The translations under genes were made by a program, and so were the position numbers. A DNA stretch of 64,000 bases from Pseudomonadales bacterium (GTDB taxonomy: Bacteria; Pseudomonadota; Gammaproteobacteria; Pseudomonadales; DC-out160). Position 1 is the stretch's first letter; each line of letters begins with the position of its first letter. Positions 6,780 to 48,261 of this stretch are shown here, piece after piece. Below the pieces are notes generated by a model. That model ran no database searches. It was not told where the DNA came from and saw only the letters and a list, made by a program, of their open reading frames with translations. The stretch is from positions 134,083 to 198,082 of the forward strand of contig JAHRWA010000008.1 in assembly GCA_019090455.1 (NCBI GenBank). Reading direction: 5' to 3'.

Positions 6780-9700
6780 TTATACTGAAAACGACGCACT
6801 TTCCTTAACGGCTCTTTTGATATCGTAGTCTAGCTTTTCGTACAAGCCCTGCGCGTTGTGCTGCTGTAAAATGGTTTCATGATTTCCTGCAACAATCCGG
6901 AAATTCATTTCCAACCGATCATCTTGATTCCACCCGACATCTGATAACATATTCTGTCCGTCGATGACAAGGGGTTCCTTAGCTCGGTAATGGTAAAGTG
7001 GCACATGGACCTGTGGTATACGGAAATGTTGTGCTATTTGTAACATCGCATTGTGGATAGATAAACGTCTTTCTATTTCAGAAAAACCAATATCGTCATT
7101 TAGAATTCGTAACATCACTAACTTCTGATAGATTATTCTCAACAATGTATCGGATTTTTCTGCGAGTTCATCAGCGGTCAGCCCCAGCATTTTAGGAATC
7201 GGAGTGTCTTTAAATATTTGAGATAATAAATTCTCGTTGCTGAGCACTTGTTTCATATCGTCGCTAGGATAATAGGTGTCGATAAGTCCTACCATCTGGA
7301 CGCTTAAGCCTTCTTGAGGTTGCTGTTCTATTTGGTTTGCCATTTCTAATGCAATTAATCCCCCCATGGAATGGCCCAAAAGGACAATGGGACCATTGAT
7401 ATGTTGTGCCTTCATCTCCTTAATGTATTGCATCGCTACCACATGCTGATCTTGCAAAGGAGTTTGACCGTCTTCCATTCCATAAGCTTGAATACCGACA
7501 CAGCGAGTACCGGAAAATTGATGTGCTAAATTTTTATAATTAAAGATGCTACCGCTAACCGGGTGAATCATAACAATAGTATGCTCGTCGCTAGTCTCGG
7601 CCCCGTGGTCTGGCGGGAGGGTGGACAGATCCACAATAGGGGACCAAACAGTTTGCAAGTCAATATTATCGATGATGGTTGCGAGTTCATGTAATACGGA
7701 ATTGGAGAATACGACTGTCAGAGGAAGTTTGATGTTGAAACTTTCTTTTATCAGTGCAACCAATTTGACCACTAACAGAGAGTGCCCCCCCAATTCGAAA
7801 AAATCATCATCACGCCAGACAGTCTTTAATGAAATTAACTTAGACCATAGGCCTGCCAATATTTTTTCGGTTTCTGTTGTTTTTTCAGATGAGTGTTTGA
7901 TGGGAGCGGGTTCAATAGCGGCTAATTTTTTTCTATCGATTTTTCCACTAATGGTTAAGGGCATTTTATCCATCACGATATAATGATGGGGTAACATTGA
8001 AGGGGGTAATTGGTTTGTGATGGTGTCTTTCAGCTGTTTTAATGTGGGATCATCTATAGATCGTTGACCTTTATCTGGATATGCCGAAATTGATTTGTTC
8101 CAAGTTAAATAGGCGGTTAATTGCTGTATTTTATTACGCTCTCCCTTTGAGTCTGTATTTTTCGACTGCCTCTCTTTTAGTAACACGGCGGCCTGAGAAA
8201 CTGCATCTTGACTGGTTAATGCCGTTTCCACTTCGCCGAGTTCAAAACGAATACCCCGCACTTTAACTTGGTGATCCATGCGACCCAGATAGTCTATTAG
8301 TCCACTTTGATTTAAACGCACCTTATCACCGGTACGGTATATTTTTTCACAAGAACTAGACTCATGAAAGGAACTGGACCGAGGAAAGTAATCAGGCAGC
8401 AGCGCACTATCCAAGTAATATTTTGTATTCAGCTCATCGCGATTTAAGTAACCTTGGCCCACACCATCGCCGCCTATATACAATTCTCCGATACAGCCTG
8501 CGGGTCGCATTCTTTGTTTGTTATCGAGAATGTAGAGTTGAGTATTTTGAATGGCTTTGCCGATAGTGACTGTGGGTGTGTTTTTAATTAACTCCGATGT
8601 CACCAACGTATCGCTAGACCATATCGTGGTTTCAGTGGGGCCATATACATTATATAGCGTCAGGTTTCGTTCCAAGATCTGGTTCGCTAGCGACGCATTC
8701 AGAGCCTCTCCGCCGCATAGTCCAATCACATTCTGTTTTCTGTTGTCTGGCGATAATCGCCATTGGGTCATCATTATTAATTGCCAGGTGGCAGGTGTCG
8801 CTTGAATAGTCGTGATTTGATAGGTATCCATTAATGCTGCGATGGCCTCACCATCTCGCGTATCACTGTCATTCGCCATGACGATTTTCGCGCCGGTCAT
8901 TAATGGCATCCACAATTCCAATCCCGCAATATCAAAGGCGATCGCGGTGAGCGCCAACATGGAGTTCTCTGAGGTGAATGCGAGCTTACGTTGATAATGG
9001 TCCAATAGATTATTCAGGTTCTTATGACTTATTTGAGCGCCTTTCGGTGTGCCCGTAGAACCTGACGTATACAATATATAGGCGGTGTTATTAGCCGAGT
9101 ATTGCGATGACTTGTTTTTTACTGAAAGGTCTGGTGCAGAAAGGATCGGTGCAGAAAGGTCCGGTGCTGGACTTGCTAGAAGAGAGTCATCGGATAGTGT
9201 ATCCAAACATAAATGTGCAATTTCATTTTCGGGAAGGTTAGAGCGTAGCGTACTGTGAGTAATGACTAATACGGGAAGAACATCCGTTATAATTCTATCG
9301 TTACGTTCAGGGGGATTGTCGATGGCTAAAGGCACATACGCGGCGCCCACTTGCCAGGTAGCCAATAATGCCGCGACCATTTTGGGAGAGCGGGGCAGGT
9401 GAACGGCGACTCGATCGCTTTCTTGTACGCCTTTCTCCCGCAGAATAACGGCTAAGTTTTCTGACGCATTTTGTAAGTCACCGTATGTCCAACTTTGTTG
9501 CTCAAAGATGATGGCATCTTTGAGTGGGTTTTGACGGAATTGTTCTGCAATTCTATTAGCCACTGTGGTGTTTTGAATTGGCTGATTTTCCCCGATAAGT
9601 TGATGGCTGATTACCTCCGCTTCACCCTCTAGCAAAATATCAATGGATGCCATGGATCGCTGATCGTCATGGATGATTTGTTTTGCGAGATGGACCACAC

Positions 9701-12700
9701 GCCGTAAAAAGTGCGCATCCGTAAATTGGTCATCTCGATACAGAAATTCTAACTTAGTGGTGTTCTTCAATATTTTTATACGAAACTGAGCTTGTTCAGT
9801 TCGGTTGCTGATTTCTTCGATGAGGGTGCGCTGATTGTTATGTTGTTCGTCAGGAATGTAAGTGATCAGATTAAACAAGAACCCTGTGGTAGTGTCAGCG
9901 AGTTTATCCAGATAAGCATCGGAAACGTCTAAGTGTGGTTTTCGTTTCTTCTGTTCACTTTTGAGGTATATCCAGGTATCTGAAATAGGCTGCTCATTGT
10001 CCAGCGCCGATTTTTGGAAAACGAAAGGAATTTTTCTTAGGTAACAACCCAGATGGGAAATCTTGCGTTTGGAAAAGGGCATATCCAATTCGAATAGGGG
10101 GAAATCCCCTTCGGGCTCAATCAATCTGTTCAGCACCATGCCGTAAAGTAGCTTGTAAAAAATAGCCGATGTGATTCGCTTTTGACGACAATACTGGCGG
10201 ATATCCAAAGACAGTTCTTTATCCATCATCAATGAGGATGACTTCAATAATTCCGATGACTTCAATAGAGACTTATCTAGGTCTAGTTGAGGTGGTTTTA
10301 ACACAGGTAACGCTTGGACCTGACTAAACTGCTGTTGCCAATAAGCTTCATCGGCTGGATCAGCTTCTAGAGCATGGGTGGCAGCACATTCCGCATTATA
10401 ATTTTGAAGATTCAATATAGGTCGATCGCTCACCGAGAATGCTTGCTGTGGGCCGAAGCATTGCTCCGCCATTTGTTGGCCATGTAGCTGCGCGGAGTAG
10501 CCGTCTAATAAAGCGTGATGACAAACAAAAACAAATATTTGTGTTTCTTGCGGAATATCGACGATGATGTAGCGACATAATCCGTAACGTGACGCGTCTG
10601 AGTTTTTTGGATTTAAATCAAAAGGGATCTCGAAACAAGATTTGATATATTGATCTGCGCTACTGCGTGTCGGGCAGGACTTGAATTCCAGTAGATCACT
10701 GAAGACAGCGTTGCCGGCATTTTCGATACAAAAATGTAAGTCATCTCCAAACCGCCAATCGCCTTCCACAACCCGTGCGCGCAACATGGGTTCCTGTTGA
10801 ATGATTCGCTCGATGGATAAAGCAATACGGTCTAAATCGAAAGGTTCTCGACTGTAAACCAGATAGCCATGATTGTCGGCGCTATTGTCTGGCTTGAGTT
10901 GCTGTCCCATTACAATTTGTTTTTGCATATAGGTTAGCGGTATCAGATAGTCGATCTGACTCTGTTCAACCCCTATCATAGAAAGATAATCCGCTTGTGG
11001 GATTGTGCTCAATTCACTAATGAGTTTATCGCCACTCTGGTATAAATTATCGATCAAATATTCAAAGCCAGTTGCGAGTAGTTTAGCTGTGGAGATGTCG
11101 AATTTATTGCTCTTATAGTGCAAGCTTGCTTTAAATGATCCCGCTTCTTTCCAAATCACCAGTTGCAGGTCAAAGATCAAATCTGCATTTTCTGCCTCAC
11201 CACTGATCCCGTCAAATTCGGTGAATTGTGAGCCGATGGGGGCGACCTCAGTACCGTCAATCAACTCACTCAGGTTATCCCAATTAAATTCTTCCCCAAG
11301 CTGAAAATCCTGGTAATTAAAACCGATTTGAGAACCGGGTAGCTTTCCGTTGCTCTTACCACTGCTACGATCTATTCCCAGTGATTCGGCCAGCACGTCT
11401 AGGGGGACATCTTGATTCGAAAAAGATTGTAAACTGAGATCCTTACAGGAATTTAAGTAATCTTTAACTGTTGTGGTCTCATCAACGGTAATGGGGATAA
11501 CAACACCATTGACAAATAAACCCACAATATCTTCTGTTTCGAGGAGATCCCTTCCCGCTGTAGGAACACCAATGGTGAGTTTCGCGGACTGACTAAAGCG
11601 AGAAACCAAAAGAGAGTACGCCGCTAAGTAATACATAAACGGACTAGAGGCATTTTCACCACAGTATTGCCGTACCTTCTCCGTTGTTGCGTCGGAGATC
11701 ATTATCGTTTGTGTGAGTCGTTGCAGTGAACTGATTGCAGCCATATGGGGCAAATCAGGTAAATTCAGTTGATGAGGGAAATCGTGTAATGCGGAACGCC
11801 AAAACTCAATCTTTTGTTGTAAGGCTTCGCCTTGTAAGTATTCTTTTTGCCAGACAGAAAAATCTTTATATTGCAGCGCGGGCTTTCCGTTAAGGTGGTG
11901 GTTATCTAAAAGGGAATCAGCATCCTCAGAATAATCTTGTTTATACTCAATATAAAGCTGCATTAGCTCTGATTGGATAAGCTTAATCGACCAACCGTCC
12001 GCCACGATATGATGCAAGCAGATACTGATAACCATATCGCTGATGACAGCCTCATGGGCTTGCTCATCACGACCGATCAAATAGAAAGAGACTCTAAAAA
12101 GATCATCGGTTGCCACATCAAAACCGTAACGACAATCCTTTGATATATGGTCCATGACCCTAGCGATAATGTCTTTTTGGGTGTCTTCTTTCTTTTCGGT
12201 GCTTTTGGGTGATTGCGTATAGTCTTCTATACGAACCTGCCAGTCTTGCTGGGGGGCATCGATTACCTGCCATCCTGTTCCGTCCATCTCGACAATTCGA
12301 GTCCGCAAACTTTCATGGCGAGCACGTAGCATTTTGAAAGCGCGTTCTAGCGCTCTCACATTCATCTTGCCTTGTAGTCGAATCGCCGTTGGAATATTGA
12401 AATGGCCCGAACGTGGCGACAACTGATCTAGAAACCACATGCGCTCTTGATTGTATGACAAGGGATAAAAAGGCGAGTCATTGTCCTCTGTTACGATAGG
12501 CACCAATTTTGGAGGCACTAATATCGAAACAGAAGACTTCGTGTTATTAAGAGATTGTGATGTGTCATTGGCTTCGATTGAGCGAGTAATATGATTTGCC
12601 ATATCGAGAAAACCGGGGTGCTCAAACACAAAGCGGAGACTGATCTGAAGGCCAAACTCATCCTTAATTCTAGCGCTTAAGCGCGCGACTAGTAGAGAAT

Positions 12701-15700
12701 GACCACCCAGTTGGAAAAAATCTCTGCCACTGAGTAACGGCTCTTGACCGAGGACGCATTCCCATATATTGAGCAGGCGAACTTCCACTTCAGTATTGGT
12801 TGTGATGAAATCCTGATGTCCTGGTGTGACATTCCACAGTAGCAACGCTTTACGATCAATTTTACCGTTGTTGGTTAACGGCCATTTATCCACTTTAGTG
12901 ATGTGAGTCGGTAACATGGTTTCCGGTAATGCGCCGGCTATAAAAGATAGAATAGATTCTGTAATCGTGTCAGGTGTGTTTTCTTTTTGACGGTTTAAAT
13001 CCTTTTTATTCACTTTTAAATCATTGTTATTATCTTTTACATCATTGTCATTCACTAGGGCGACAAAGGCTCTTAACTCGTAGTCGAAAACAGGATTGTC
13101 ATTCGACGCGTTCTTATCCACGGCGACGACTATGGCCAAACTAACGGCTGCATGTTCTTTAATTTTTTCTTCTATTTCATTTAGCTCTACTCGAAAGCCG
13201 CGAATTTTTATCTGATGATCACTTCTTCCGTTTATTTGTAGTTGACCCTCATGGTTATACTGAACTATATCCCCAGTTTTATAACCACGAATATCATTGC
13301 CTTTCGCATCCTTTATAATTCGAAAACGCTCGGCAGTTTGTATTGGATGGTTTAAGTAACCTGCGGCTAATCTGCCGGTTACCCACAATTCACCCAAGGT
13401 ACCAAACGGCGCGACTCTGCCAAAAGTATTCAATACCAATAAGGAGTGATGGTCGAAGGCTTGGCCTATGGGAATAACAGAAGTCAGTGGAGTAACCTGT
13501 GATGCAATTGTCTTAGAATCAATAGTAGTCTTAGAATCAAAAGTGTTCTCAGAATAAAAAGTAGTATCGATACACGCTTCCGTCAGACCATAAGAATTAA
13601 TGAGGCGAGTATTAGGGAGTGTGTGTTTTTTCAATCGTTCCAGGTCTGCTCGGTACCACATGTCGGAACCCACCACGATAGTGTTTAGTGGTGGCAATGC
13701 CGATTTTGTCTCATCCAAATAATCAAGCAAGTGGCGTAGTACTGCGGGTACAAATTCGGCGAATGAAATGTTCGTATGACATAACAAACGATACAGAGCG
13801 ACACCATCCATTAAGGTGTCTTGATCGCATAGGACGAGAGTGTCGCCGCTACAGAGTGCGCGTATCCAATCACCTGTGCAGACATCGAATGCCGTATTCG
13901 CCATTTGCAAATGATTCTGTCGTTGGAGTCCTAGTGAATACGCGTGTTTCCAAGCAACATAGGTTTCCAGTAGTGGACCATGCTGAACCACGACGCCTTT
14001 GGGTACTCCCGTCGTGCCCGAGGTATAGATTATATAGGCAGGGCTATTTGCGCTTATTGTAGGTAAGGAGGTAGGGCGCAGTGCTTTTTCCGCGTGAATG
14101 TTACGAAAACTAAGTACTTCACAGTTATGATTTAACGATGCACACAGTTGAGCCAGGCTATTTTCAGTCTCGTCGTCTACGATAAGATAGCGAATGCCGC
14201 AATCTTGTAACACCGTTTGTTTGCGATCCGCTGGCCAGTTAGGATCGATTGGAACATAACAACAACCCGACTTTAAGATTGACAGCATGGAGATAAAAAC
14301 AGAACTGGACTTTTCCATGCACAATGCAATACACAGCCCTTTCATCGGGGGCTGGTTATCATCAACACTGAGCTCTTGCAATGATGTGTTGAGGCGGATC
14401 TCATTCAGACGGGTTGTTAGCTTTAATACATCGGAGGCGAGTTGTCGGTAAGTAAATTGATGGTCACCATCGACTAAGGCGATTTCATCCCCATAGCGTT
14501 CGCATGCGAGAGTAAAGAGATCGGCGACTGAATTGACAGTGTTTGAAATGACCGTGTTTGAACATACAGAGTTGGGTAGAGCTAATGATCTATTGGATAG
14601 ATTAGCGAGAACTCTATTTTCGATTTTTTGTAACGCGTACCGATCAGACTCTAGAAGGATATCCACGTCCCCCCAAGTTTCTACCTCGTCTTTGACAATT
14701 TGATCGCTAATGGCAACCAGCCGATCTAAAAGCTGAAAGTCTTGGAATTGAGAGGTTTCATACATTAGTTTCAGGGAAACGCCTTTCTCCATGACTTGCG
14801 CAACAAACTGTACGCAATCGGAAGCCAAGGTGGGAAAGGGCATGTAGTCAATTGCAGAGCCGGCAATATCAACGGGTTTGGTGAAATGGTAGTAGTTAAA
14901 TGAGAACTGTAAGCCACTGGATTGATACAAACCGGCTAAACGCCGCAAGGAAACCATGCTGACTTTCTTTCGACTCTTTTGGTCTTGCCTCAGAAACGCA
15001 AAAACATCCGCAATTCTATCATCGGATTGAAATAGATCTCTTCGATAAAGCACCGGTACTTGATGAAGGAAGCAGCCAAACCCTCTGTCTTTCAGACCTG
15101 AGCGACCCGCCAATACATTTTTTATGACGAGGGAATGATTGTTCTGTGCGAGCTGGTACAAAGTGAAAGCAAACAGACCTTGAAAATAAAGCATGGGCGT
15201 TATTTTGTTTTGTCGGCAATACCGCGCAATCGGTTTCCAACGGTCTTCCCCTATGACCTGACTACACTCGGTAAAGCGTTGATGATTTCTCAGGTTGGTT
15301 TTGTTCTCAGAGGAATTTTGCTCAGAGATATTGTGTCTAGAAGAGAGGGGCGGTACGGGGAAACTTGTCGGTTCGTGCTCTTGTAGATAATGACGCCAGT
15401 ATGCCAGTGCAGCAGGGCTATCCGTCTCATCATGAAACCGTTTTGCTCTTTCGTTGAAGTCATTGTACTCATCGGAAGAACTGTAGTCATCGGAAGAACT
15501 AAAGTCATCGAAGTCATTCAAACGGCTGTAGACTTCTACTACTTTATTTCCGTGCAGTGCCAGGCTCACTCCGTCTAACATTAAATGATGACAAGAGCAG
15601 ATTAAGGCTAAGTAGCCGGGGTCAATTTCAATAATAATATATTGCACCAACGCTGCATTGACGAGTTCGTAGTCTTGATAAATAAAATCCTTGCTGCGTT

Positions 15701-17735
15701 CCAATATTGTGTCGCGTGTAATGTCGTGATCACCATAAAGCAGTACCGTTAATGCAAGGTCACCAGACTCTCTTGGTTTTTGTACGATGCCAGCATCGCC
15801 CGGATAATCCGTCGTGATCAGTTGATTGCGTAATGCGGGGTTACATTTTTCCACGTAGTGTAGTGCTTTGCGCCAAAGGGATTCATTTAATGTGAGATTC
15901 GCTAGCGCCAAATAGCCAAGAGTATTGGTGTCAGGGCCTTTAAATAAAGAGTCGTAATAAAAGTCCAATTGAGAAGGGGTGAGTTGCGTGCTTTGGTGCC
16001 CTGACATTGGTCGCTGTTTTATCGATTTTTCGGGATTAGACATCAGCCATTGCAATATATCTCGAAACTGCTTTGATAGTTCTTGAATATAATCAGTGTT
16101 AAACCGCGAGTTATCGAATTCCATCAGGAATTGATTTTGATTCGCTACGACGGTCATGGCTAGATCTGTTTTTGGTGTCACATGTTTATTAAAAACCAAC
16201 TGACACGGTTTTGATCCCAGAGTGATATCGATGCTGTCAGAATGAGGTTCGAGTGTTGCTTCTAAACTAAACGAGCAGTAACAACCTTGTTGCACGGCCT
16301 TTTGATCTTGCTGAGGCATGCCAGAAATGACCTGCTCAAAAGAGGCGCGATGATACTGTAGGCTCTCTAAAATCAGCTTGAAATTTTCTTCTAAAACAGT
16401 TTTAGCGCTTTTTTCAAAAAGATTCTCATTCCTTAAAATAACACTATTGACCAGCATGCCCACTGTGGGCCTTGAAGCCAAAGACCTATCCGCTACAGGC
16501 ATACCGATACAGATATCGTCGCGTTGAACATAGGTGGCAAGTAGAAATTGAAAAGCCGTAAAATAAAAAGCCGATTCAGAGATTGCTAATTTTTCTGTCA
16601 ATAGTTGAACTTGATGATTCAAGTTTTGAGGCAAGGTCATAACGATAATATTACTGGACCCAATGGAATCACCATGGGGAGGCAGACGTTGGCCTAAAGG
16701 GGCCCCACTTAATTTCTCAATCCAATAATCAACGGATGTTTGATTGTTTTCCTCAGAGTATGGTTGCACAGGTGAATTCTGTGGCAAAGTAGGTAATAGG
16801 GTTTCTGGACTTGTGAGTGAATTTGTAGTCGAGCTTGTGTCTGAACCTAAGTTTGAAGTGAGGCCAGTCAATAGTGTGTCGAGTTCTCGGCGTAAAATAT
16901 CCACGGACCAACCGTCGCAAGCGATATGGTGAACATTGACGAAGATAACCTGTTTCTCAATGCCCTGTATCTCAATGCCTCTACGTTTAAGTGTGTAGTG
17001 TGAAATACGAATGGGATATTCTGATTGAAGATTAAAAGGTGTTCGGTAGTGTTTGTTCTCCGTGTCTGAAAACCACTGATCAAAGGCTTCATCGGTATCA
17101 ATTTCTAAGCTAGATGCGCAATAGAATGAAGTCTCGAATGGCTTTTCCTTTGAATAATTATCACCTTCTATCTGATCAAAAATACTGTGCAAATTCGGAT
17201 GACGATTAACAAGGATGGTAAACGCTTGCTTTAATATTTCACTATCGACATTCTCAAAGATTAGGCTACCAGAGATATGATAAGCAGGGCTTGTTCTGTT
17301 CAGTAGGTATAAAAAATACAACCTGTTTTGGGCGGGAGTTAAAGGTTGCCAATTTGTGTCGTTTTTCTTGGATACTGTGTCGATGCTGATAGGCTGAAGC
17401 GTATCAAACAGTTCATCAGAATCGCTAGTGCCAAGTCGGTTTTCCCCAGTGGGGTGATTGATAGTGGGGTGATTGCAAGCGGAAAGCACTAAGTTGAGCG
17501 AGTCTTCAATGGTATCCGCCGTGTATAGTGCTTCTAGCTTTAAATTAACACCGAGGGTGTTCATTAATTCAGATCGAAATTGGGTTAGCTGGATTGAACT
17601 GACTCCCAGATCCCGAATGACTGTCCTATAAGAAATCCGTTGTGCTACCGCAATATCAGACCAGACCGCGAGGACGGTGTGTTGAATGAAAGCCGGGCTG
17701 TGGTTTTTCTTGTCGGTACTCATTGTGTCTACCAT
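6780..17735 (-). CDS. Two-module NRPS with tandem condensation domains: T-C-C*-A-T-C-C*-A-T-TE
   Basis: About 3651 residues. Domains by motif (approximate residues): carrier T0 with LGVSSIQL (Ser near 45); C1 from 129 (HHIACDGWS, 268); C2* from 584 (HHLMLDGVS, 716); A1 from 1069 (YTSGTTGVPKG, 1236; GYKTGD, 1481); T1 LGGHSLLV (1675); C3 from 1751 (HHIVADGWS, 1908); C4* from 2263 (HHALLDGYS, 2406); A2 from 2721 (YTSGSTGTPKG, 2889; YRTGD, 3132); T2 LGGHSLLV (3314); thioesterase with GHSMGG (3453). Hand alignment to the GrsA PheA pocket gives A1 code DVGEVGSIDK (ornithine-like) and A2 DILQLGVIWK (glycine-like). No loading domain precedes T0, so its substrate must arrive in trans. The start is ATG 17735, closely preceded by AAAGGA; a TTG at 17738 and an ATG at 17723 are alternatives. 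The gene is followed by an exporter. Inferred product: an acyl- or aminoacyl-Orn-Gly compound released by the thioesterase. Confidence 0.95.
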   Translation of the reverse strand: MVDTMSTDKKNHSPAFIQHTVLAVWSDIAVAQRISYRTVIRDLGVSSIQLTQFRSELMNTLGVNLKLEALYTADTIEDSLNLVLSACNHPTINHPTGENRLGTSDSDELFDTLQPISIDTVSKKNDTNWQPLTPAQNRLYFLYLLNRTSPAYHISGSLIFENVDSEILKQAFTILVNRHPNLHSIFDQIEGDNYSKEKPFETSFYCASSLEIDTDEAFDQWFSDTENKHYRTPFNLQSEYPIRISHYTLKRRGIEIQGIEKQVIFVNVHHIACDGWSVDILRRELDTLLTGLTSNLGSDTSSTTNSLTSPETLLPTLPQNSPVQPYSEENNQTSVDYWIEKLSGAPLGQRLPPHGDSIGSSNIIVMTLPQNLNHQVQLLTEKLAISESAFYFTAFQFLLATYVQRDDICIGMPVADRSLASRPTVGMLVNSVILRNENLFEKSAKTVLEENFKLILESLQYHRASFEQVISGMPQQDQKAVQQGCYCSFSLEATLEPHSDSIDITLGSKPCQLVFNKHVTPKTDLAMTVVANQNQFLMEFDNSRFNTDYIQELSKQFRDILQWLMSNPEKSIKQRPMSGHQSTQLTPSQLDFYYDSLFKGPDTNTLGYLALANLTLNESLWRKALHYVEKCNPALRNQLITTDYPGDAGIVQKPRESGDLALTVLLYGDHDITRDTILERSKDFIYQDYELVNAALVQYIIIEIDPGYLALICSCHHLMLDGVSLALHGNKVVEVYSRLNDFDDFSSSDDYSSSDEYNDFNERAKRFHDETDSPAALAYWRHYLQEHEPTSFPVPPLSSRHNISEQNSSENKTNLRNHQRFTECSQVIGEDRWKPIARYCRQNKITPMLYFQGLFAFTLYQLAQNNHSLVIKNVLAGRSGLKDRGFGCFLHQVPVLYRRDLFQSDDRIADVFAFLRQDQKSRKKVSMVSLRRLAGLYQSSGLQFSFNYYHFTKPVDIAGSAIDYMPFPTLASDCVQFVAQVMEKGVSLKLMYETSQFQDFQLLDRLVAISDQIVKDEVETWGDVDILLESDRYALQKIENRVLANLSNRSLALPNSVCSNTVISNTVNSVADLFTLACERYGDEIALVDGDHQFTYRQLASDVLKLTTRLNEIRLNTSLQELSVDDNQPPMKGLCIALCMEKSSSVFISMLSILKSGCCYVPIDPNWPADRKQTVLQDCGIRYLIVDDETENSLAQLCASLNHNCEVLSFRNIHAEKALRPTSLPTISANSPAYIIYTSGTTGVPKGVVVQHGPLLETYVAWKHAYSLGLQRQNHLQMANTAFDVCTGDWIRALCSGDTLVLCDQDTLMDGVALYRLLCHTNISFAEFVPAVLRHLLDYLDETKSALPPLNTIVVGSDMWYRADLERLKKHTLPNTRLINSYGLTEACIDTTFYSENTFDSKTTIDSKTIASQVTPLTSVIPIGQAFDHHSLLVLNTFGRVAPFGTLGELWVTGRLAAGYLNHPIQTAERFRIIKDAKGNDIRGYKTGDIVQYNHEGQLQINGRSDHQIKIRGFRVELNEIEEKIKEHAAVSLAIVVAVDKNASNDNPVFDYELRAFVALVNDNDVKDNNNDLKVNKKDLNRQKENTPDTITESILSFIAGALPETMLPTHITKVDKWPLTNNGKIDRKALLLWNVTPGHQDFITTNTEVEVRLLNIWECVLGQEPLLSGRDFFQLGGHSLLVARLSARIKDEFGLQISLRFVFEHPGFLDMANHITRSIEANDTSQSLNNTKSSVSILVPPKLVPIVTEDNDSPFYPLSYNQERMWFLDQLSPRSGHFNIPTAIRLQGKMNVRALERAFKMLRARHESLRTRIVEMDGTGWQVIDAPQQDWQVRIEDYTQSPKSTEKKEDTQKDIIARVMDHISKDCRYGFDVATDDLFRVSFYLIGRDEQAHEAVISDMVISICLHHIVADGWSIKLIQSELMQLYIEYKQDYSEDADSLLDNHHLNGKPALQYKDFSVWQKEYLQGEALQQKIEFWRSALHDFPHQLNLPDLPHMAAISSLQRLTQTIMISDATTEKVRQYCGENASSPFMYYLAAYSLLVSRFSQSAKLTIGVPTAGRDLLETEDIVGLFVNGVVIPITVDETTTVKDYLNSCKDLSLQSFSNQDVPLDVLAESLGIDRSSGKSNGKLPGSQIGFNYQDFQLGEEFNWDNLSELIDGTEVAPIGSQFTEFDGISGEAENADLIFDLQLVIWKEAGSFKASLHYKSNKFDISTAKLLATGFEYLIDNLYQSGDKLISELSTIPQADYLSMIGVEQSQIDYLIPLTYMQKQIVMGQQLKPDNSADNHGYLVYSREPFDLDRIALSIERIIQQEPMLRARVVEGDWRFGDDLHFCIENAGNAVFSDLLEFKSCPTRSSADQYIKSCFEIPFDLNPKNSDASRYGLCRYIIVDIPQETQIFVFVCHHALLDGYSAQLHGQQMAEQCFGPQQAFSVSDRPILNLQNYNAECAATHALEADPADEAYWQQQFSQVQALPVLKPPQLDLDKSLLKSSELLKSSSLMMDKELSLDIRQYCRQKRITSAIFYKLLYGMVLNRLIEPEGDFPLFELDMPFSKRKISHLGCYLRKIPFVFQKSALDNEQPISDTWIYLKSEQKKRKPHLDVSDAYLDKLADTTTGFLFNLITYIPDEQHNNQRTLIEEISNRTEQAQFRIKILKNTTKLEFLYRDDQFTDAHFLRRVVHLAKQIIHDDQRSMASIDILLEGEAEVISHQLIGENQPIQNTTVANRIAEQFRQNPLKDAIIFEQQSWTYGDLQNASENLAVILREKGVQESDRVAVHLPRSPKMVAALLATWQVGAAYVPLAIDNPPERNDRIITDVLPVLVITHSTLRSNLPENEIAHLCLDTLSDDSLLASPAPDLSAPILSAPDLSVKNKSSQYSANNTAYILYTSGSTGTPKGAQISHKNLNNLLDHYQRKLAFTSENSMLALTAIAFDIAGLELWMPLMTGAKIVMANDSDTRDGEAIAALMDTYQITTIQATPATWQLIMMTQWRLSPDNRKQNVIGLCGGEALNASLANQILERNLTLYNVYGPTETTIWSSDTLVTSELIKNTPTVTIGKAIQNTQLYILDNKQRMRPAGCIGELYIGGDGVGQGYLNRDELNTKYYLDSALLPDYFPRSSSFHESSSCEKIYRTGDKVRLNQSGLIDYLGRMDHQVKVRGIRFELGEVETALTSQDAVSQAAVLLKERQSKNTDSKGERNKIQQLTAYLTWNKSISAYPDKGQRSIDDPTLKQLKDTITNQLPPSMLPHHYIVMDKMPLTISGKIDRKKLAAIEPAPIKHSSEKTTETEKILAGLWSKLISLKTVWRDDDFFELGGHSLLVVKLVALIKESFNIKLPLTVVFSNSVLHELATIIDNIDLQTVWSPIVDLSTLPPDHGAETSDEHTIVMIHPVSGSIFNYKNLAHQFSGTRCVGIQAYGMEDGQTPLQDQHVVAMQYIKEMKAQHINGPIVLLGHSMGGLIALEMANQIEQQPQEGLSVQMVGLIDTYYPSDDMKQVLSNENLLSQIFKDTPIPKMLGLTADELAEKSDTLLRIIYQKLVMLRILNDDIGFSEIERRLSIHNAMLQIAQHFRIPQVHVPLYHYRAKEPLVIDGQNMLSDVGWNQDDRLEMNFRIVAGNHETILQQHNAQGLYEKLDYDIKRAVKESASFSV
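9125..9169. repeat. Three 15-bp in-frame duplications in NRPS A2 linker
   Basis: Units at 9125, 9140 and 9155 share AAAGG-TC-GGTGC. On the coding strand they produce a repeated (D/I)LSAP motif in a loop just before the A2 nucleotide-binding motif. Confidence 0.8.
13510..13563. repeat. Three 18-bp in-frame duplications in NRPS A1
   Basis: Units begin at 13510, 13528 and 13546, the first two nearly identical (GTCTTAGAATCAAWAGTR) and the third diverged. They encode repeated (T/F)DSKT-like residues in a surface insertion of A1 after the conserved SYGLTEACID region. Confidence 0.8.
14535..14564. repeat. Two 15-bp in-frame duplications before NRPS A1
   Basis: GACAGTGTTTGAAAT at 14535 is followed directly by GACCGTGTTTGAACA at 14550. 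On the coding strand they give SNTVI then SNTVN in the linker between C2* and A1. Confidence 0.75.
15470..15505. repeat. Two 18-bp in-frame duplications inside NRPS C2*
   Basis: Units start at 15470 and 15488 (CATCGGAAGAACTRWAGT). They encode the acidic FSSSDDYSSSDEY stretch in a loop of C2*. Confidence 0.8.
16955..16984. repeat. Two 15-bp in-frame duplications inside NRPS C1
   Basis: TCTCAATGCCCTGTA at 16955 and TCTCAATGCCTCTAC at 16970. They encode GIEIQ then GIEKQ in the loop just before the HHIACDG motif of C1. Confidence 0.7.
17446..17475. repeat. Two 15-bp in-frame duplications after NRPS T0
   Basis: CCAGTGGGGTGATTG at 17446 and ATAGTGGGGTGATTG at 17461. They encode INHPT then NHPTG in the linker between the N-terminal carrier and C1. 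Confidence 0.75.
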
Positions 17736-18268
17736 CAATCCTTTTGAGAATTCGCGTGATCGTTGAATTTTAATGAACTTAAGACACTATTTCGTAAACG
17801 TAGTACTTATAATAAAAATTTATTCTCTAATGTTGGCTGCATTTTTATTATGCTAATCATGGTAGTAAGGCAAAAGTAGAGGTGTGGCATGCTAAAAATA
17901 GTTTACTTAAAAAGGTGATAGCCGATTGTATAGATCATGTGGTTTTGTCGTAAACCGTGAGCGACGTGAAAAACGGTAATGTTAGTTTTACTGTGATTAG
18001 TTTTACTTTGAAGAGCAGCAAGCTGTATGAGATTCAATCTGTCAGTGCCATTAGCTATTTGCGTTGGCATCGTAATACGAGAGATAGTGTGGACTCAATG
18101 AAATAAAATATAAATTAAGATGTAACACCTGCTTGCACAACAACTTGCTTATACAACTTTTTACCGTTTACCATTTACATAGTGGAGTAGCGTCGATGCA
18201 AGAATATTGAAGCAAGGCACCTATGATTACATGAGAACTAAAATCCTAAATCACCTATGAGAATATTC
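17736..18268. other. Divergent intergenic region, NRPS / monooxygenase pseudogene
   Basis: 533 bp without a recognisable gene. It should hold the NRPS promoter; the stretch nearest the NRPS is AT-rich, with TATTATAAG-like sequence on the minus strand near 17805-17815, but no confident -35/-10 pair. A 15-bp tandem duplication lies at 17982-18011 (TTAGTTTTACTGTGA, then TTAGTTTTACTTTGA). Confidence 0.5.
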
Positions 18269-37618: not shown

Positions 37619-39673
37619 ATGAAAAAATTCAATCTGGTATTACCTTTACTCTTCTTTTCTGCCACATCGCTATCTATTGGCTGTCAAGGAGCAGAGCGCC
37701 ACGCCCCGATCATTCAGTCTGATCGTAGTCCACCCCAGGTGAGTGTGGACGATGATAGCGACAGTTTAGCCTTGCCTGGGTGTGTACAAGTGCAGGGTTT
37801 TAGTCAGACGTTACAGTTTTTTAACGCGATGGATTCTGGATTTGAAGCGGCTATTGGGTCAGGTGATGGAGTACAGTTGTTCGCTAAAGGAGGGCTAACG
37901 CTATCGTCATGGGCCGTGGGAGGCGAAGCCTATGATCGGGCTTCAGTTGAAAGCGGTTGTCTGGAGAACAGCGATACACCACAACTTGGCGTACTGTCTG
38001 TCAGCGGTAATTTCGGTGATGACGTGACTTCGTGGGTCGATGGTATTAACGCAGCCGTAGAAGGGGTGCTCATCAATAATTTAGAGATGGAGGTTCTCGT
38101 GTTGGAAAGCGTTATCGGTGGACCTTCTGGAGAAATATGTTTGTCTACTGAGGTCACTCCTGAGAATGGGAGGGGATGCGATGGAGATGGTTTTGGTGAC
38201 GTGGTGCGAGCTTCAGAGCAATATCCCTATATTAAGCAAGCGATAGAGGAAGTGGTGGAAGCACAAAATTTAGAGAACGTCACACTAAGAGCCGGTGTTT
38301 TCCCGACGGTAGCATCGTGCTCAAATTATTGCGATTCCAAAGGTCATTTGAATGCCGCTTTTCGTTACGAAATTGGTCATAATATAGGGCTAAGTTATCT
38401 TGAGAACAACACGTTAGCGATGCGTTCGGAGTCAGGGGATGAGCGGGGTACTCGAATAGTAGAAACGATTCCGTGTGAGAATAATGATGATTTAGACGTC
38501 TCCTGCGAGTTAGTGTTATTGGCATTAGATCCTGATGAAATCAACATGCCTCAAGACGATGCGTTGAAGGAAATAACCATTGCTCTGGCTATTCGTACAC
38601 CTAAGAATGGGGATCTTAACGCTAAGGCAGTGATGTTTGATGCCGGCGGAAAAGGAGAGGGGTATGGACCGACTTTCGGTTCAATGTCGCCTGGCAATTA
38701 TCGTGCTGGTGGTAATGGCTATGGAGATGATTTGATAAAATGGTATAACGATCTGGGTTATATCACTGTTGATGTGATTTATGGCTGTTCTGCTGGTGGG
38801 CTTTGCCAAGATGGCATCATTGACGATTTGTTACATTATGAAGGTGGAGTCGGGGGCTGGTTTAGAGATACGGGTGGCGCAGGTTATGTCGGTGTCGGTG
38901 CGCGAGAGCTGGCCATTATAAAATGGATCTATGCACAATCCGGTTCGCCAATCGCAATTCACGCTCATTCTTCGGGGTCAGGTAGAGTGATGGCTGCCCT
39001 TACACGATATGATGCAGCACCGTATATTTCCGATATCGTTTTTGATGGTGGGCCCGTTTTTGCCTACATCCCGTGGTATTGCGAAACATTAGAAAATAAG
39101 AAAGGCCAAAAACGCCAGGAGACATTCGGTCCTTTGGGTCCACTATCGTTGTCACCCTTTTATCTCAAAGGACAGCAAAATCACAGAAAAAACTATGACA
39201 ATGCGCGGGACGATAACAATGGCGTTCAAGATGCTAACGGGGCTTACCAATATTGTAGTGAAGGGATTTATGATAGAACTCGAATGTTAGATGACTCCCT
39301 CTTTTATAGTGCTGTGGAGCGTTCCTTCCCGGATCTCAATATCGGAGTCGTGCTCGGTGGACTCGACGAGTCACCTGCTCCTGCACATGCCCGATTGTGG
39401 TTTAACGGATACCAGTTTGGAGATGTCACCATTCCGGCTATATCCGCTAAAAATCTGAGTATTGTTCAAGGCTATTGTGAGAGTGATAGCGCAGGGACCT
39501 ATACTCATAGTGATTTGACCCACTCTTGTCGTGATTGGGACGCTGATTTATTCCCGACGACAGAATCGGTTGTTTATGACGGCGATCTCGCGGGGACAAC
39601 TCACAATACCACTAACGATAGAAACGGTGCGCAAACTGTCTTTAATCTAATGAAGGCATTTTTGGGTGATTAA
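37619..39673 (+). CDS. Unusual lipoprotein: metzincin-like N half and alpha/beta-hydrolase-like C half
   Basis: 684 residues with a lipoprotein signal peptide (lipobox SIGC, Cys22); GGAG precedes the ATG. In the N-terminal half, residues 250-260 read YEIGHNIGLSY. This copies the zinc-protease consensus HExxHxxGxxH except that the first and third His are Tyr, so catalytic zinc binding looks lost. The C-terminal half has FDAGGKGEGYGPTF and, near residue 447, IAIHAHSSGSGRVMAAL, which resembles the nucleophile elbow (small-x-Ser-x-Gly) of an alpha/beta hydrolase, followed by ISDIVFDGGPVF. I do not recognise a described family with this combination. Probably an envelope-anchored or surface protein. 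No operon partner. Confidence 0.7.
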   Translation: MKKFNLVLPLLFFSATSLSIGCQGAERHAPIIQSDRSPPQVSVDDDSDSLALPGCVQVQGFSQTLQFFNAMDSGFEAAIGSGDGVQLFAKGGLTLSSWAVGGEAYDRASVESGCLENSDTPQLGVLSVSGNFGDDVTSWVDGINAAVEGVLINNLEMEVLVLESVIGGPSGEICLSTEVTPENGRGCDGDGFGDVVRASEQYPYIKQAIEEVVEAQNLENVTLRAGVFPTVASCSNYCDSKGHLNAAFRYEIGHNIGLSYLENNTLAMRSESGDERGTRIVETIPCENNDDLDVSCELVLLALDPDEINMPQDDALKEITIALAIRTPKNGDLNAKAVMFDAGGKGEGYGPTFGSMSPGNYRAGGNGYGDDLIKWYNDLGYITVDVIYGCSAGGLCQDGIIDDLLHYEGGVGGWFRDTGGAGYVGVGARELAIIKWIYAQSGSPIAIHAHSSGSGRVMAALTRYDAAPYISDIVFDGGPVFAYIPWYCETLENKKGQKRQETFGPLGPLSLSPFYLKGQQNHRKNYDNARDDNNGVQDANGAYQYCSEGIYDRTRMLDDSLFYSAVERSFPDLNIGVVLGGLDESPAPAHARLWFNGYQFGDVTIPAISAKNLSIVQGYCESDSAGTYTHSDLTHSCRDWDADLFPTTESVVYDGDLAGTTHNTTNDRNGAQTVFNLMKAFLGD

Positions 39674-45134: not shown

Positions 45135-47909
45135 TTAGGGACATTCAGATAGGCTGTCGATCCACAAGCTAACGATTTCAACTCCGTCATCATCTACGAG
45201 GGCGGAGCCCAAAGGAGGCATTTCGTCGCCTTCATTACAACCAGAAACCCCTGCTCGACAGTCCAGTCTCTTTATCATTGTTGAGTTCAAGGCATCACCT
45301 GGGCTCATAATAGCGCGGGCCTCTCCCATCAGGTGAGTGGGATTTACATTACAAATATTCATGTTTGAGTCGGGTGTGTTGATATGAAAATCCAGATCAA
45401 CATTGGTAGGGCCGCTTGATTGATGACATTGAGCGCAGTTGGTGTGTAGGTAGGCACGCGCGCGATCATGGATGCTGGCTGAGATGTCGTCGGGGTCCGT
45501 GAGACGATCTAAATTGTTTCCAATGTCGGTGAGCGAGGATGTAAACAGGTCGATACTATTGAGAGTAAATAGTTGATTCGCATGTATGCCGGTTGTGTCA
45601 TATAGCAAACTTTTGTTGAGCTGCTGTGTTTCGGGTCCTAGGGTTATTCCCGCTACGGTGGTGTGGCATATCATGCAATCGGTGGAGCTTGGGAAGATAT
45701 AAGTCTGATTTTCTTTGATAATGGTTTTACCGTTTAACAGTAATGTTGCGTCGGTTTCTGACTCATTCCATTCATAACTGTAGCCGCCCCAACTACCATC
45801 GGCGTGGCGTGCCAATAATCGGGTTTCTATTCGGCGATCATCTAAGAGAAAGTTTTTCACCAATACCGAGTTAGGCGGAAAGGTCCAATCACCATTAGTT
45901 TCAACCGAAATTTGTCCGTCGTTTGGAAGGGCCATCCAGCGCTCTTTGACAGCGCCATCGGACCAAAATTTGGCATTAATATCGTAGGGTATTAATCCTG
46001 ATGCCATAGCAAGAGGATTGTCACTATCGATACAGCCGGTTTCTGATAGTTGATCGGGGAATGTATCGTCAACGCTTTCCGATGCAGCGTCTATGCGGTG
46101 AATGAAGCCGTTAGAAAAATCGAGGGCATAGAGTTCACCTTGGTTATCCTCAGCAAAAGAACTGATAAAAAAGCTCGCAGAGATTAGCTCCTCAGTGACT
46201 GGATTGGTACCGCTAGGATCGCTAATTCCCCAAATGGGACCGGAGCCATAGTCGCTAAATAAATAGGTACCATAAAGGGCTGGAATCGCATTGCCGCGAT
46301 ACACGTAACCTCCCGTCACTGAAAAGCCTTGGTTACGATTGTATTCGTAAATCGGTGCGTCGTAATCCTCTTGAGACTGACACTCGAAGGTATTAAAAAC
46401 GTTATTACCTTCGTAACAACGCCAGCCGTAATTACCGCCTTTCTTAACTATATCGATTTCTTCCCAGTTGTTTTGTCCGACATCGCCAACATAAATGTCA
46501 CCAGTGACACGGTCGAAACTCCAACGCCATGGGTTTCGTAGACCCAGGGCAAAGGTTTCATCTAAAGTGCTGGTGTTCACGTAGGGATTGTCTAAAGGAA
46601 TACTGTAATTGTTGCCATTGGCGGGTGTGTCAATATCAATGCGTAGCATCTTGCCTAGTAGGCTGAGAGGGTTCTGAGCGTAGTTTTCTGGGTCGCCGCT
46701 ACTGCCGCCATCGCCTAAACCAATATACAAATAACCATCCGGTCCAAATAGTATATTTCCGCCATTGTGATTACTGTAGGGTTGATCTATGCGCATTATT
46801 TCCAGCTCTGAATCAAAATCCAGTATTAATTCATTGGTGATATTAAACCGGGAAATAACGGATTGGTGATCATCCGGGCCGCCACTGACGGAATAGTAAA
46901 TAAAAATAAATCCATTGGTTGAAAAGTCGGGATGAAAGTCCAACCCTAATAATCCTTTTTCGCTACCGGTGGATATTCGGCTGCCAAAATCCGCTACCAA
47001 CGTCGTAGTATTATCCCCGTCGAGGAAAGATCGAATTGTTCCACCTTGTTCAGCAACATACCATCGTTGGTTGGCCGATTGACGCAGGGCAACGGGTTTG
47101 AAAAAACTGAGGTTCGGAAAGACGCGAGTTAGCTGAATATCGGAAGATAGATTGGGAGGAGTAGTAATGACGCAACTGTTGTTCGTCGGTCGGACGGATA
47201 GACCAGAAATTGAATCGTCTTGATCGAGGATGGTAATTTGAAAATCGTGAATGATGCTGTGAATGCTATCGGATAGGGTGATCTCTAGTTGATAGGTATT
47301 ATTGCCGTCACTATCGTTCGGGCTTTCGTAATCAGGTGCGGTGTTAAAAAGCAGTATTCCGCTTTCGGTATGAATGGAAAACAGAGATTGATCAACCCCA
47401 CCTGAGAGTGAATAAGAAAGGCTGTCACCATCAAGGTCGAATGCGATGACAGTCGTTACCGTAGTGGAATTCTCTTCAATGGAAATGGTATCACCTAGAT
47501 TGATAGTGGGTGCAAGATCGTTTTGGTTTAACACTGTGATTGTCATGACTTGTGTGACGGAAGGGGTGTCAATTGCAGAAGCTTGAACTTGAATTTGATA
47601 ACGATTATTTTCGTCAGCATCGTTCGGGTTTTCATAATCGGGAGCAAGAAGGAAGGAGAGGGCTCCGGATTCACTATCAATACTCAATAACGATTGATCG
47701 TCGCCACCGGTTAATTGATAACTGACGGTATTTGTTGCCGGGTGAGTTGAGGAAATATTGGCGATGAATAGTGTGTTTTCTTCAACGTCGATGAGAGATT
47801 CTGAGTTAAAGACGAGTGCGTCGGCGTTCACATTCTTTGATGAGCCCCCGCAACTACTAATAAAAACAGACATGATCAGAGATAAAAATAGAGGCTGAAA
47901 ATAATTCAC
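45135..47909 (-). CDS. Lipoprotein fusion: cadherin-like repeats, PQQ sugar dehydrogenase, two heme c motifs
   Basis: About 924 residues from GTG 47909; an in-frame TTG at 48011 would add 34 residues. The GTG start puts a Cys (FISSC) at residue 20, a normal lipoprotein signal peptide, which favours it. Two cadherin-like repeats follow (each with DQSLxSIxSESGxLxF then PDYExPxDxD). Next is a soluble glucose/sorbosone dehydrogenase (PQQ) propeller with GLLGLDFHPDFSTNGFIFI, GDGGSSGDPENYAQN and FALGLRNPWRWSFD. The C-terminal 300 residues carry two heme motifs, CMICH near 744 and CAQCH near 823. Likely a surface or periplasmic sugar or aldehyde oxidase that passes electrons to its own cytochrome part. 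The gene stands alone. Confidence 0.88.
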   Translation of the reverse strand: MNYFQPLFLSLIMSVFISSCGGSSKNVNADALVFNSESLIDVEENTLFIANISSTHPATNTVSYQLTGGDDQSLLSIDSESGALSFLLAPDYENPNDADENNRYQIQVQASAIDTPSVTQVMTITVLNQNDLAPTINLGDTISIEENSTTVTTVIAFDLDGDSLSYSLSGGVDQSLFSIHTESGILLFNTAPDYESPNDSDGNNTYQLEITLSDSIHSIIHDFQITILDQDDSISGLSVRPTNNSCVITTPPNLSSDIQLTRVFPNLSFFKPVALRQSANQRWYVAEQGGTIRSFLDGDNTTTLVADFGSRISTGSEKGLLGLDFHPDFSTNGFIFIYYSVSGGPDDHQSVISRFNITNELILDFDSELEIMRIDQPYSNHNGGNILFGPDGYLYIGLGDGGSSGDPENYAQNPLSLLGKMLRIDIDTPANGNNYSIPLDNPYVNTSTLDETFALGLRNPWRWSFDRVTGDIYVGDVGQNNWEEIDIVKKGGNYGWRCYEGNNVFNTFECQSQEDYDAPIYEYNRNQGFSVTGGYVYRGNAIPALYGTYLFSDYGSGPIWGISDPSGTNPVTEELISASFFISSFAEDNQGELYALDFSNGFIHRIDAASESVDDTFPDQLSETGCIDSDNPLAMASGLIPYDINAKFWSDGAVKERWMALPNDGQISVETNGDWTFPPNSVLVKNFLLDDRRIETRLLARHADGSWGGYSYEWNESETDATLLLNGKTIIKENQTYIFPSSTDCMICHTTVAGITLGPETQQLNKSLLYDTTGIHANQLFTLNSIDLFTSSLTDIGNNLDRLTDPDDISASIHDRARAYLHTNCAQCHQSSGPTNVDLDFHINTPDSNMNICNVNPTHLMGEARAIMSPGDALNSTMIKRLDCRAGVSGCNEGDEMPPLGSALVDDDGVEIVSLWIDSLSECP

Positions 47910-48261
47910 GTATTTGACTCTTATTGCAGGTTTTTGAATGTAGGGAAGTATAGGTGTATGAAAGTCATTATAACAGATGCCCGTGGAGTAGAAGTGGTAC
48001 GTGAGTCGCAAGAATATGAGTGCCGATTACAAGAGTGCCTGTTCCTCAGTAATAGACCTTCAGTAATAGACTAAAGGAAAAACGATGATGCATCATTGCT
48101 ACCTATAGCTATAGTTTGCCTTAAACTAATTTATTTAAACTATCGAACCCTTTGATAATATGGATTCTGAAGTTAGTATAGATTCCGAAGTTAATGATAG
48201 ATCTTGAAATAGACCTAGAATCACAAATCCAATTAGAAATACCTATATGAAGGAGCACGGC
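47910..48261. other. Divergent intergenic region with 18-19 bp repeats
   Basis: 352 bp between the PQQ lipoprotein and aldehyde dehydrogenase genes. GATTCTGAAGTTAGTATA at 48163 and GATTCCGAAGTTAATGATA at 48181 form a tandem pair, with a weaker third unit after 48200. No promoter called. Confidence 0.5.

Follow-up and report, generated by a model that had tools for sequence, protein, structure and literature searches.

A predicted two-domain serine esterase lipoprotein combining SGNH/GDSL-type and alpha/beta-hydrolase modules in a Pseudomonadales bacterium

Analysis of a 64,000-nucleotide stretch of DNA from a Pseudomonadales bacterium, referred to here as the window, revealed a gene whose 684-residue product is probably a bifunctional surface esterase, exported and lipid-anchored, with an SGNH/GDSL-type domain followed by an alpha/beta-hydrolase domain. 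In this reading, the folds are those given by prediction, and from these and the sequence we infer the lipid anchoring, the activity, the double specificity and the substrate. An earlier note had described the protein as a lipoprotein joining a pseudo-protease of the metzincin class to a hydrolase. A probable two-half lipoprotein with a serine hydrolase in its second half is what we find as well, but the first half is almost certainly not a metzincin. The pseudo-metzincin is a false lead, and its place is taken by two conserved, predicted esterase domains that lack a Pfam family. The features of the gene, all on the forward strand, are as follows.

37619–39673, forward: gene for the predicted 684-residue two-domain serine esterase lipoprotein (open reading frame)
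37619–37681, forward: signal peptide, read directly from the sequence
37682–37684, forward: Cys22 of a lipobox-like ..SIGC, seen in the sequence as ..SIGC-Q
37772–38404, forward: N-terminal half, predicted SGNH/GDSL-type esterase domain, residues 52–262 (profile, homologues, AF2 with Foldseek and VIA)
37802–37804, forward: Ser62, proposed SGNH nucleophile in block I, GFSQ (conservation, structural register)
38009–38011, forward: Asn131, candidate oxyanion Asn of block III, in SGNF (follows model strand 75–79)
38333–38347, forward: Asp239-x-x-x-His243, candidate block V, DSKGH (conservation in 11 rows)
38366–38398, forward: YEIGHNIGLSY, residues 250–260, in the C-terminal helix of the predicted SGNH domain (model helix)
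38471–39667, forward: C-terminal half, predicted alpha/beta-hydrolase domain, residues 285–683 (homologues, AF2 with Foldseek and VIA)
38969–38971, forward: Ser451, predicted nucleophile elbow, AHSSG (invariant in 6/6 rows; strand then helix in the model)
39365–39367, forward: Asp583, proposed triad acid, GGLD (invariant in 6/6 rows)
39602–39604, forward: His662, proposed triad base, THNTT (invariant in 6/6 rows)

The reading frame begins with ATG and contains no internal stop, and the genome holds a single copy of the gene. The ..SIGC-Q sequence at Cys22 conforms to what we take to be the lipobox pattern and, judged from these residues, the product is a probable bacterial lipoprotein, anchored by lipid. 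Neither Pfam nor NCBIfam assigns the protein to a family at a meaningful score, and neither half reaches a cut-off; Aida_N scores best, at 15.7 bits where 25 would be required, which amounts to noise. Sequence searches of the PDB returned nothing significant, the second-ranked match in one of them being a weak one to the PAF acetylhydrolase 1bwr (E = 0.81).

For the C-terminal half, we are highly confident that the predicted alpha/beta-hydrolase fold is the correct assignment. A scan of genomes by contig yielded one relative, L002, which matches this half only and comes from a Myxococcales metagenome-assembled genome (MAG). A two-row profile extended the family to 6 of 377 Myxococcota genomes, that of L002 included, with five strong matches, of which one also contributes a row to the search profile, and one weak match. 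In the resulting six-row alignment (A2), from which a partial match in genome G834 (L027) was left out, Ser451, Asp583 and His662 are invariant (6/6). The AF2 model calculated on this alignment has a pLDDT of 65.9 and a pTM of 0.75. In it, a strand (model residues 163–168) leads through Ser169 into a helix (170–182), forming a nucleophile elbow; model residues 200–271 constitute a long insertion with pLDDT below 50. Foldseek returned 254 PDB matches at E ≤ 0.001, headed by alpha/beta-hydrolases (best E = 3.4e-6, probability 1.00). Superposition by VIA-align gave a Z-score of 16.9 with an rmsd of 2.8 over 216 residues; the neighbours include many feruloyl and acetyl-xylan esterases, together with lipases and a PETase-like enzyme. 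The earlier note had placed a serine elbow about 190 residues beyond its metzincin-like motif and had called the second half hydrolase-like, and on both points it was right. CE1 enzymes have the alpha/beta-hydrolase fold; as to membership of the CE1/feruloyl esterase family, the comparison covered the Pfam models, among which none of the six C-half members has a match.

The N-terminal half very probably adopts an SGNH/GDSL-type fold, as judged from its predicted structure. Used alone as a query against the 377 Myxococcota genomes, it found three relatives at E < 0.001 and 26 at E ≤ 0.1. A profile of this half that includes the window protein as a row matches that protein at E = 2.5e-88, and a four-row profile matched 12 of these genomes at E ≤ 0.01. 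Ten of the 12 matches cover the full length, at E ≤ 7.5e-58, and three of the ten are themselves rows of the four-row profile. The window protein and the ten homologues make up an 11-row alignment (A6), which omits the matches L063, a 124-residue open frame, and L064 (E = 0.0066). In the taxonomic order of the closest relative (63 genomes), there is no N-half match besides that relative.

The AF2 model of this half, calculated on A6, has a mean pLDDT of 69.1 and a pTM of 0.75, with the first 70 residues, the Ser62 segment among them, mostly below 50. SGNH-type hydrolases, some of them placed in that class by title, occupy the first ten Foldseek ranks in the PDB (E = 1.3e-4 to 1.7e-3, probability 0.99–1.00); the best is the PAF acetylhydrolase 1bwq (E = 1.3e-4, probability 1.00). 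Below rank 10, oxidoreductases and flavodoxin-like folds are interspersed at lower probability. The best VIA-align Z-score is 12.3, where models without a clear match typically peak at 7–8, and the score is still 10.1 at rank 50; the titles listed are mostly of esterases, lipases, PAF acetylhydrolases and O-acetyltransferases. The best matches, 2vpt (rmsd 3.6 over 171 residues) and 5b5l (rmsd 3.5 over 169), are carbohydrate esterases. The alignment with 5b5l, entitled 'acetyl esterase mutant S10A', starts at model residue 5 and residue 1 of the target, so that, assuming no gap from there, model Ser14, which corresponds to Ser62, falls on Ser10. A weak match of one homologue, L034, to PF13472 Lipase_GDSL_2 (E = 4.4e-4; 21.2 bits, below the cut-off of 32.9) also points to the SGNH class.

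The SGNH features are present by prediction: an alpha/beta/alpha fold, a serine after the first strand, in a segment of low confidence, and a histidine before the last helix. The putative serine (GFSQ/GVSVT) and histidine (GHLN/GPHFT) are each conserved in 10 of the 11 rows of A6, L034 being the exception in both instances. PMC9487903, which defines the SGNH blocks, gives block V as DxxH, places CE6 within the SGNH class and gives HQGE as block III of CE6/SASA. The spacing in the window protein is D-x-x-x-H, and the acid, Asp239, is Asp in three rows and missing in eight. For blocks II and III, the window protein has a Gly and Asn131, which are unaligned across the family and poorly kept: Asn131 of SGNF and the Asn of the GCNW rows occupy different columns, and the placement of these blocks in the family is unreliable. 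SASA/CE6 was considered as the family of this half. The SGNH fold class held and the family did not, as PF03629 has no match in the window protein or in the whole genome and block III reads SGNF, not HQGE; among genomes of the same class as the window, 1 of 56 has a match to SASA.

These results leave little room for a metzincin. The earlier note had read YEIGHNIGLSY at residues 250–260, letters that are indeed there, as a copy of HExxHxxGxxH with two zinc-binding histidines replaced by tyrosine. The E, H and G do match; they are only three of the five defining positions, with Tyr at positions 1 and 11, and this is a chance-level likeness. Among 5000 shuffles of the 684-residue sequence, 1256 contain some 11-mer matching at least three of the five positions; because such matches are so frequent, the motif carries little weight alone. 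The exact ExxHxxG pattern arises 0.069 times per shuffle and occurs five times in 37 long open reading frames of the window (18,736 residues, picked mechanically and some surely not genes), in which the full HExxHxxGxxH has no occurrence. A search for homologues with the intact motif found HExxH in none of the ten. The columns of A6 vary (Y/Q/G/A, E/A/V, H/A/R/K/Q/N and G/A/S), and the last position is Tyr in 11/11 rows, with no sign of the lost histidine that had been proposed. In the AF2 model, the motif lies just after GHL within the terminal helix (model 198–221, residues 246–269), along which the block-mean pLDDT drops from 82 to 59. The N-half model matches SGNH hydrolases, although the lack of metzincins from the match list is not in itself proof. 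We conclude that YEIGHNIGLSY is a chance look-alike in the last helix of the predicted esterase domain, and the metzincin reading was dropped. A degenerate metzincin acting as a pseudo-protease binding domain beside one active hydrolase domain would account for the three matching positions and for Met268, which follows the motif, but in view of the shuffles, the homologues and the predicted fold, we regard it as exceedingly improbable.

A serine nucleophile and an acyl-enzyme mechanism are established for both the SGNH and the alpha/beta-hydrolase superfamilies. The protein would be exported and held on its lipid anchor, each domain attacking an ester via a serine acyl-enzyme, the N-terminal one through Ser62, His243 and perhaps Asp239, and the C-terminal one through Ser451–Asp583–His662. 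With a shared anchor, one chain could free a single substrate, most likely an acylated polysaccharide, possibly a uronate-containing one, of two kinds of acyl group, in the manner of the fused acetyl/feruloyl esterases of Bacteroidetes. Against this two-esterase reading stand the moderate confidence of both models, the irregular blocks III and V, the sub-threshold Pfam scores of both halves and two points taken up below, the residues of L034 and the distance of the homologues with glycan neighbours. It seems rather likely that both serine sites are active. The opposing idea of one dead and one active domain, put forward in the earlier note, runs against the presence of both the usual SGNH serine and histidine in the window protein. 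In a related alternative, the N-terminal half keeps the SGNH fold without hydrolysing anything, and binds substrate or presents the C-terminal half, the only active domain. Poor conservation of blocks II and III and of the Asp across the family would fit this, as would the loss of both residues in L034 (described below), but with the serine and histidine retained in 10 of 11 rows, we consider it improbable.

The two halves are independent modules, found apart and recombined. Fusion of one to the other is seen only in the window protein. The C-half stands alone in lipoprotein-like open reading frames of Myxococcota (L023, L024 and L025) and in a longer open frame, L026. Outside the gene pair of G644, described next, nine N-half loci (L080, L082–L089) have no C-half match, and the C-half loci with neighbouring DNA (L002, L077, L078, L079 and L090) have no N-half match; several contigs in both sets end near the gene. 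In genome G644, the N-half homologue L034 (1300–2067) lies 118 bases upstream of an intact C-half homologue (reading frame from 2186) on the same strand. L034 has Leu for the Ser and Ser for the His, and from its sequence it may be a pseudo-enzyme partner, perhaps no enzyme. A further arrangement is found in a Myxococcales MAG (G509), where L002 (2–3307) is a continuous 1102-residue frame with a penicillin amidase domain (PF01804, E = 1.2e-81) in its N-terminal part and the C-half alpha/beta-hydrolase. A joint MAFFT alignment of the fusion with its single-domain relatives (A4) was discarded since the N-half rows were misaligned onto the C-half.

No other of the 145 relatives in the window's own lineage matched at E ≤ 0.001; in the wider class (369 genomes), a further 19 genomes matched at E = 0.01–0.5, all over short lengths and taken as chance. 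The C-half profile gave one other match among 205 genomes of the lineage, a 42-residue piece at E = 0.0019, also taken as chance. Searches of viral contigs, PHROGs and plasmids found no relative, one of the plasmid searches giving three chance matches at E ≥ 1.

The window gene is surrounded by genes for DNA polymerase II (divergent), an Fe-alcohol dehydrogenase, a TonB receptor, a fatty acid desaturase and a Rieske oxygenase, none of which points to a substrate. The dehydrogenase gene lies 109 bases downstream, and a search of the interval turned up no terminator-like site, so that co-transcription is possible; in one genome of the same genus, the neighbours beside the dehydrogenase differ. 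Elsewhere in the window, on the reverse strand, are a 3652-residue open reading frame (6780–17738) and a 958-residue protein combining domains of the glucose/sorbosone dehydrogenase and cadherin types (45135–48011).

The loci of the homologues bear on the substrate. A recurrent Myxococcota locus (L086, 4815–9273; L083, L085, L087 and L089) comprises an SGNH lipoprotein of the N-half family, a divergent heparinase-II/III-like gene and a GH88 gene. Of the ten N-half homologues, five adjoin both Hepar_II_III_C (E = 5e-14 to 5e-17) and GH88 (E = 1e-49 to 1e-54) genes; at a sixth locus, L088, BLAST identifies a truncated relative of the Hepar_II_III_C gene that has no Pfam match. The heparinase-II/III-like and GH88 classes degrade uronate-containing polysaccharides, so that an accompanying SGNH esterase would fit acyl removal, and from its gene content the locus looks like one for uronate-glycan degradation. 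It bears on the window protein only indirectly, because these five homologues form a more distant branch (20–22% identity); no such genes lie beside the closest N-half relatives, L053 and L034, or in the window. A carbohydrate substrate is, on this evidence, a plausible but tentative assignment. That the protein is instead a lipid or polyester hydrolase (a lipase or depolymerase) or an acyltransferase would suit the lipases and PETase-like enzyme near the C-half, the TesA, PAF acetylhydrolase and OatA acyltransferase domain near the SGNH half, and window neighbours that include the dehydrogenase, TonB receptor and desaturase and no glycan genes; but half of the N-half relatives have glycan-degrading neighbours, and a choice of substrate cannot rest on structural neighbours alone; we think this reading rather unlikely. 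More speculatively, the two unnamed esterase families may constitute a modular secreted system, mainly of Myxococcota, that jointly frees a glycan or matrix polymer, acylated and uronate-containing, of two different acyl substituents, a proposal we regard as doubtful at present. Its forms would be the separate lipoproteins, the adjacent gene pair, the fusion in the window and the fusion of the C-half to penicillin amidase.

Searches of an open-access library brought up no paper recognised as describing either family; if active, the two halves would found new families of esterases, possibly of carbohydrate esterases. The closest parallels in architecture are the CE6–CE1 fusions of Bacteroides ovatus and Flavobacterium johnsoniae, with an N-terminal acetyl esterase and a C-terminal feruloyl esterase and, in the B. 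ovatus enzyme, intramolecular synergy (PMC7110780), and Fll4 of Flavimarina, another fused SGNH and alpha/beta-hydrolase esterase (PMC12247016). As predicted for the window protein, the CE6–CE1 fusions of Bacteroidetes carry an SGNH-type and then an alpha/beta-hydrolase esterase in one chain. The window protein differs in that its halves score below the Pfam and NCBIfam cut-offs, its block III lacks the HQGE of SASA/CE6 and its gene lies outside a glycan locus; it is known here from sequence and models alone. Taken singly, the N-half shares its predicted fold, the serine after the first strand and the histidine before the last helix with SGNH/GDSL hydrolases (CE3 2vpt and 5b5s, acetyl esterase 5b5l, 1bwq and TesA 5tic), but at 9–13% identity, with D-x-x-x-H for DxxH and no Pfam match. 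The C-half shares its predicted fold and Ser–Asp–His order with feruloyl esterases (7xrh and 7z2v), cephalosporin C deacetylase/CE7 (1l7a and 7xmj) and dienelactone hydrolases, but at about 9–15% identity, with the long low-confidence insertion and no Pfam family. The protein of L002 (MAG contig JALSIO010000008.1) has a C-half homologue at 44% identity with the same triad, but its N-terminal partner is the penicillin amidase domain rather than an SGNH domain; the catalytic domain to which the C-half is fused varies from one bacterium to another.
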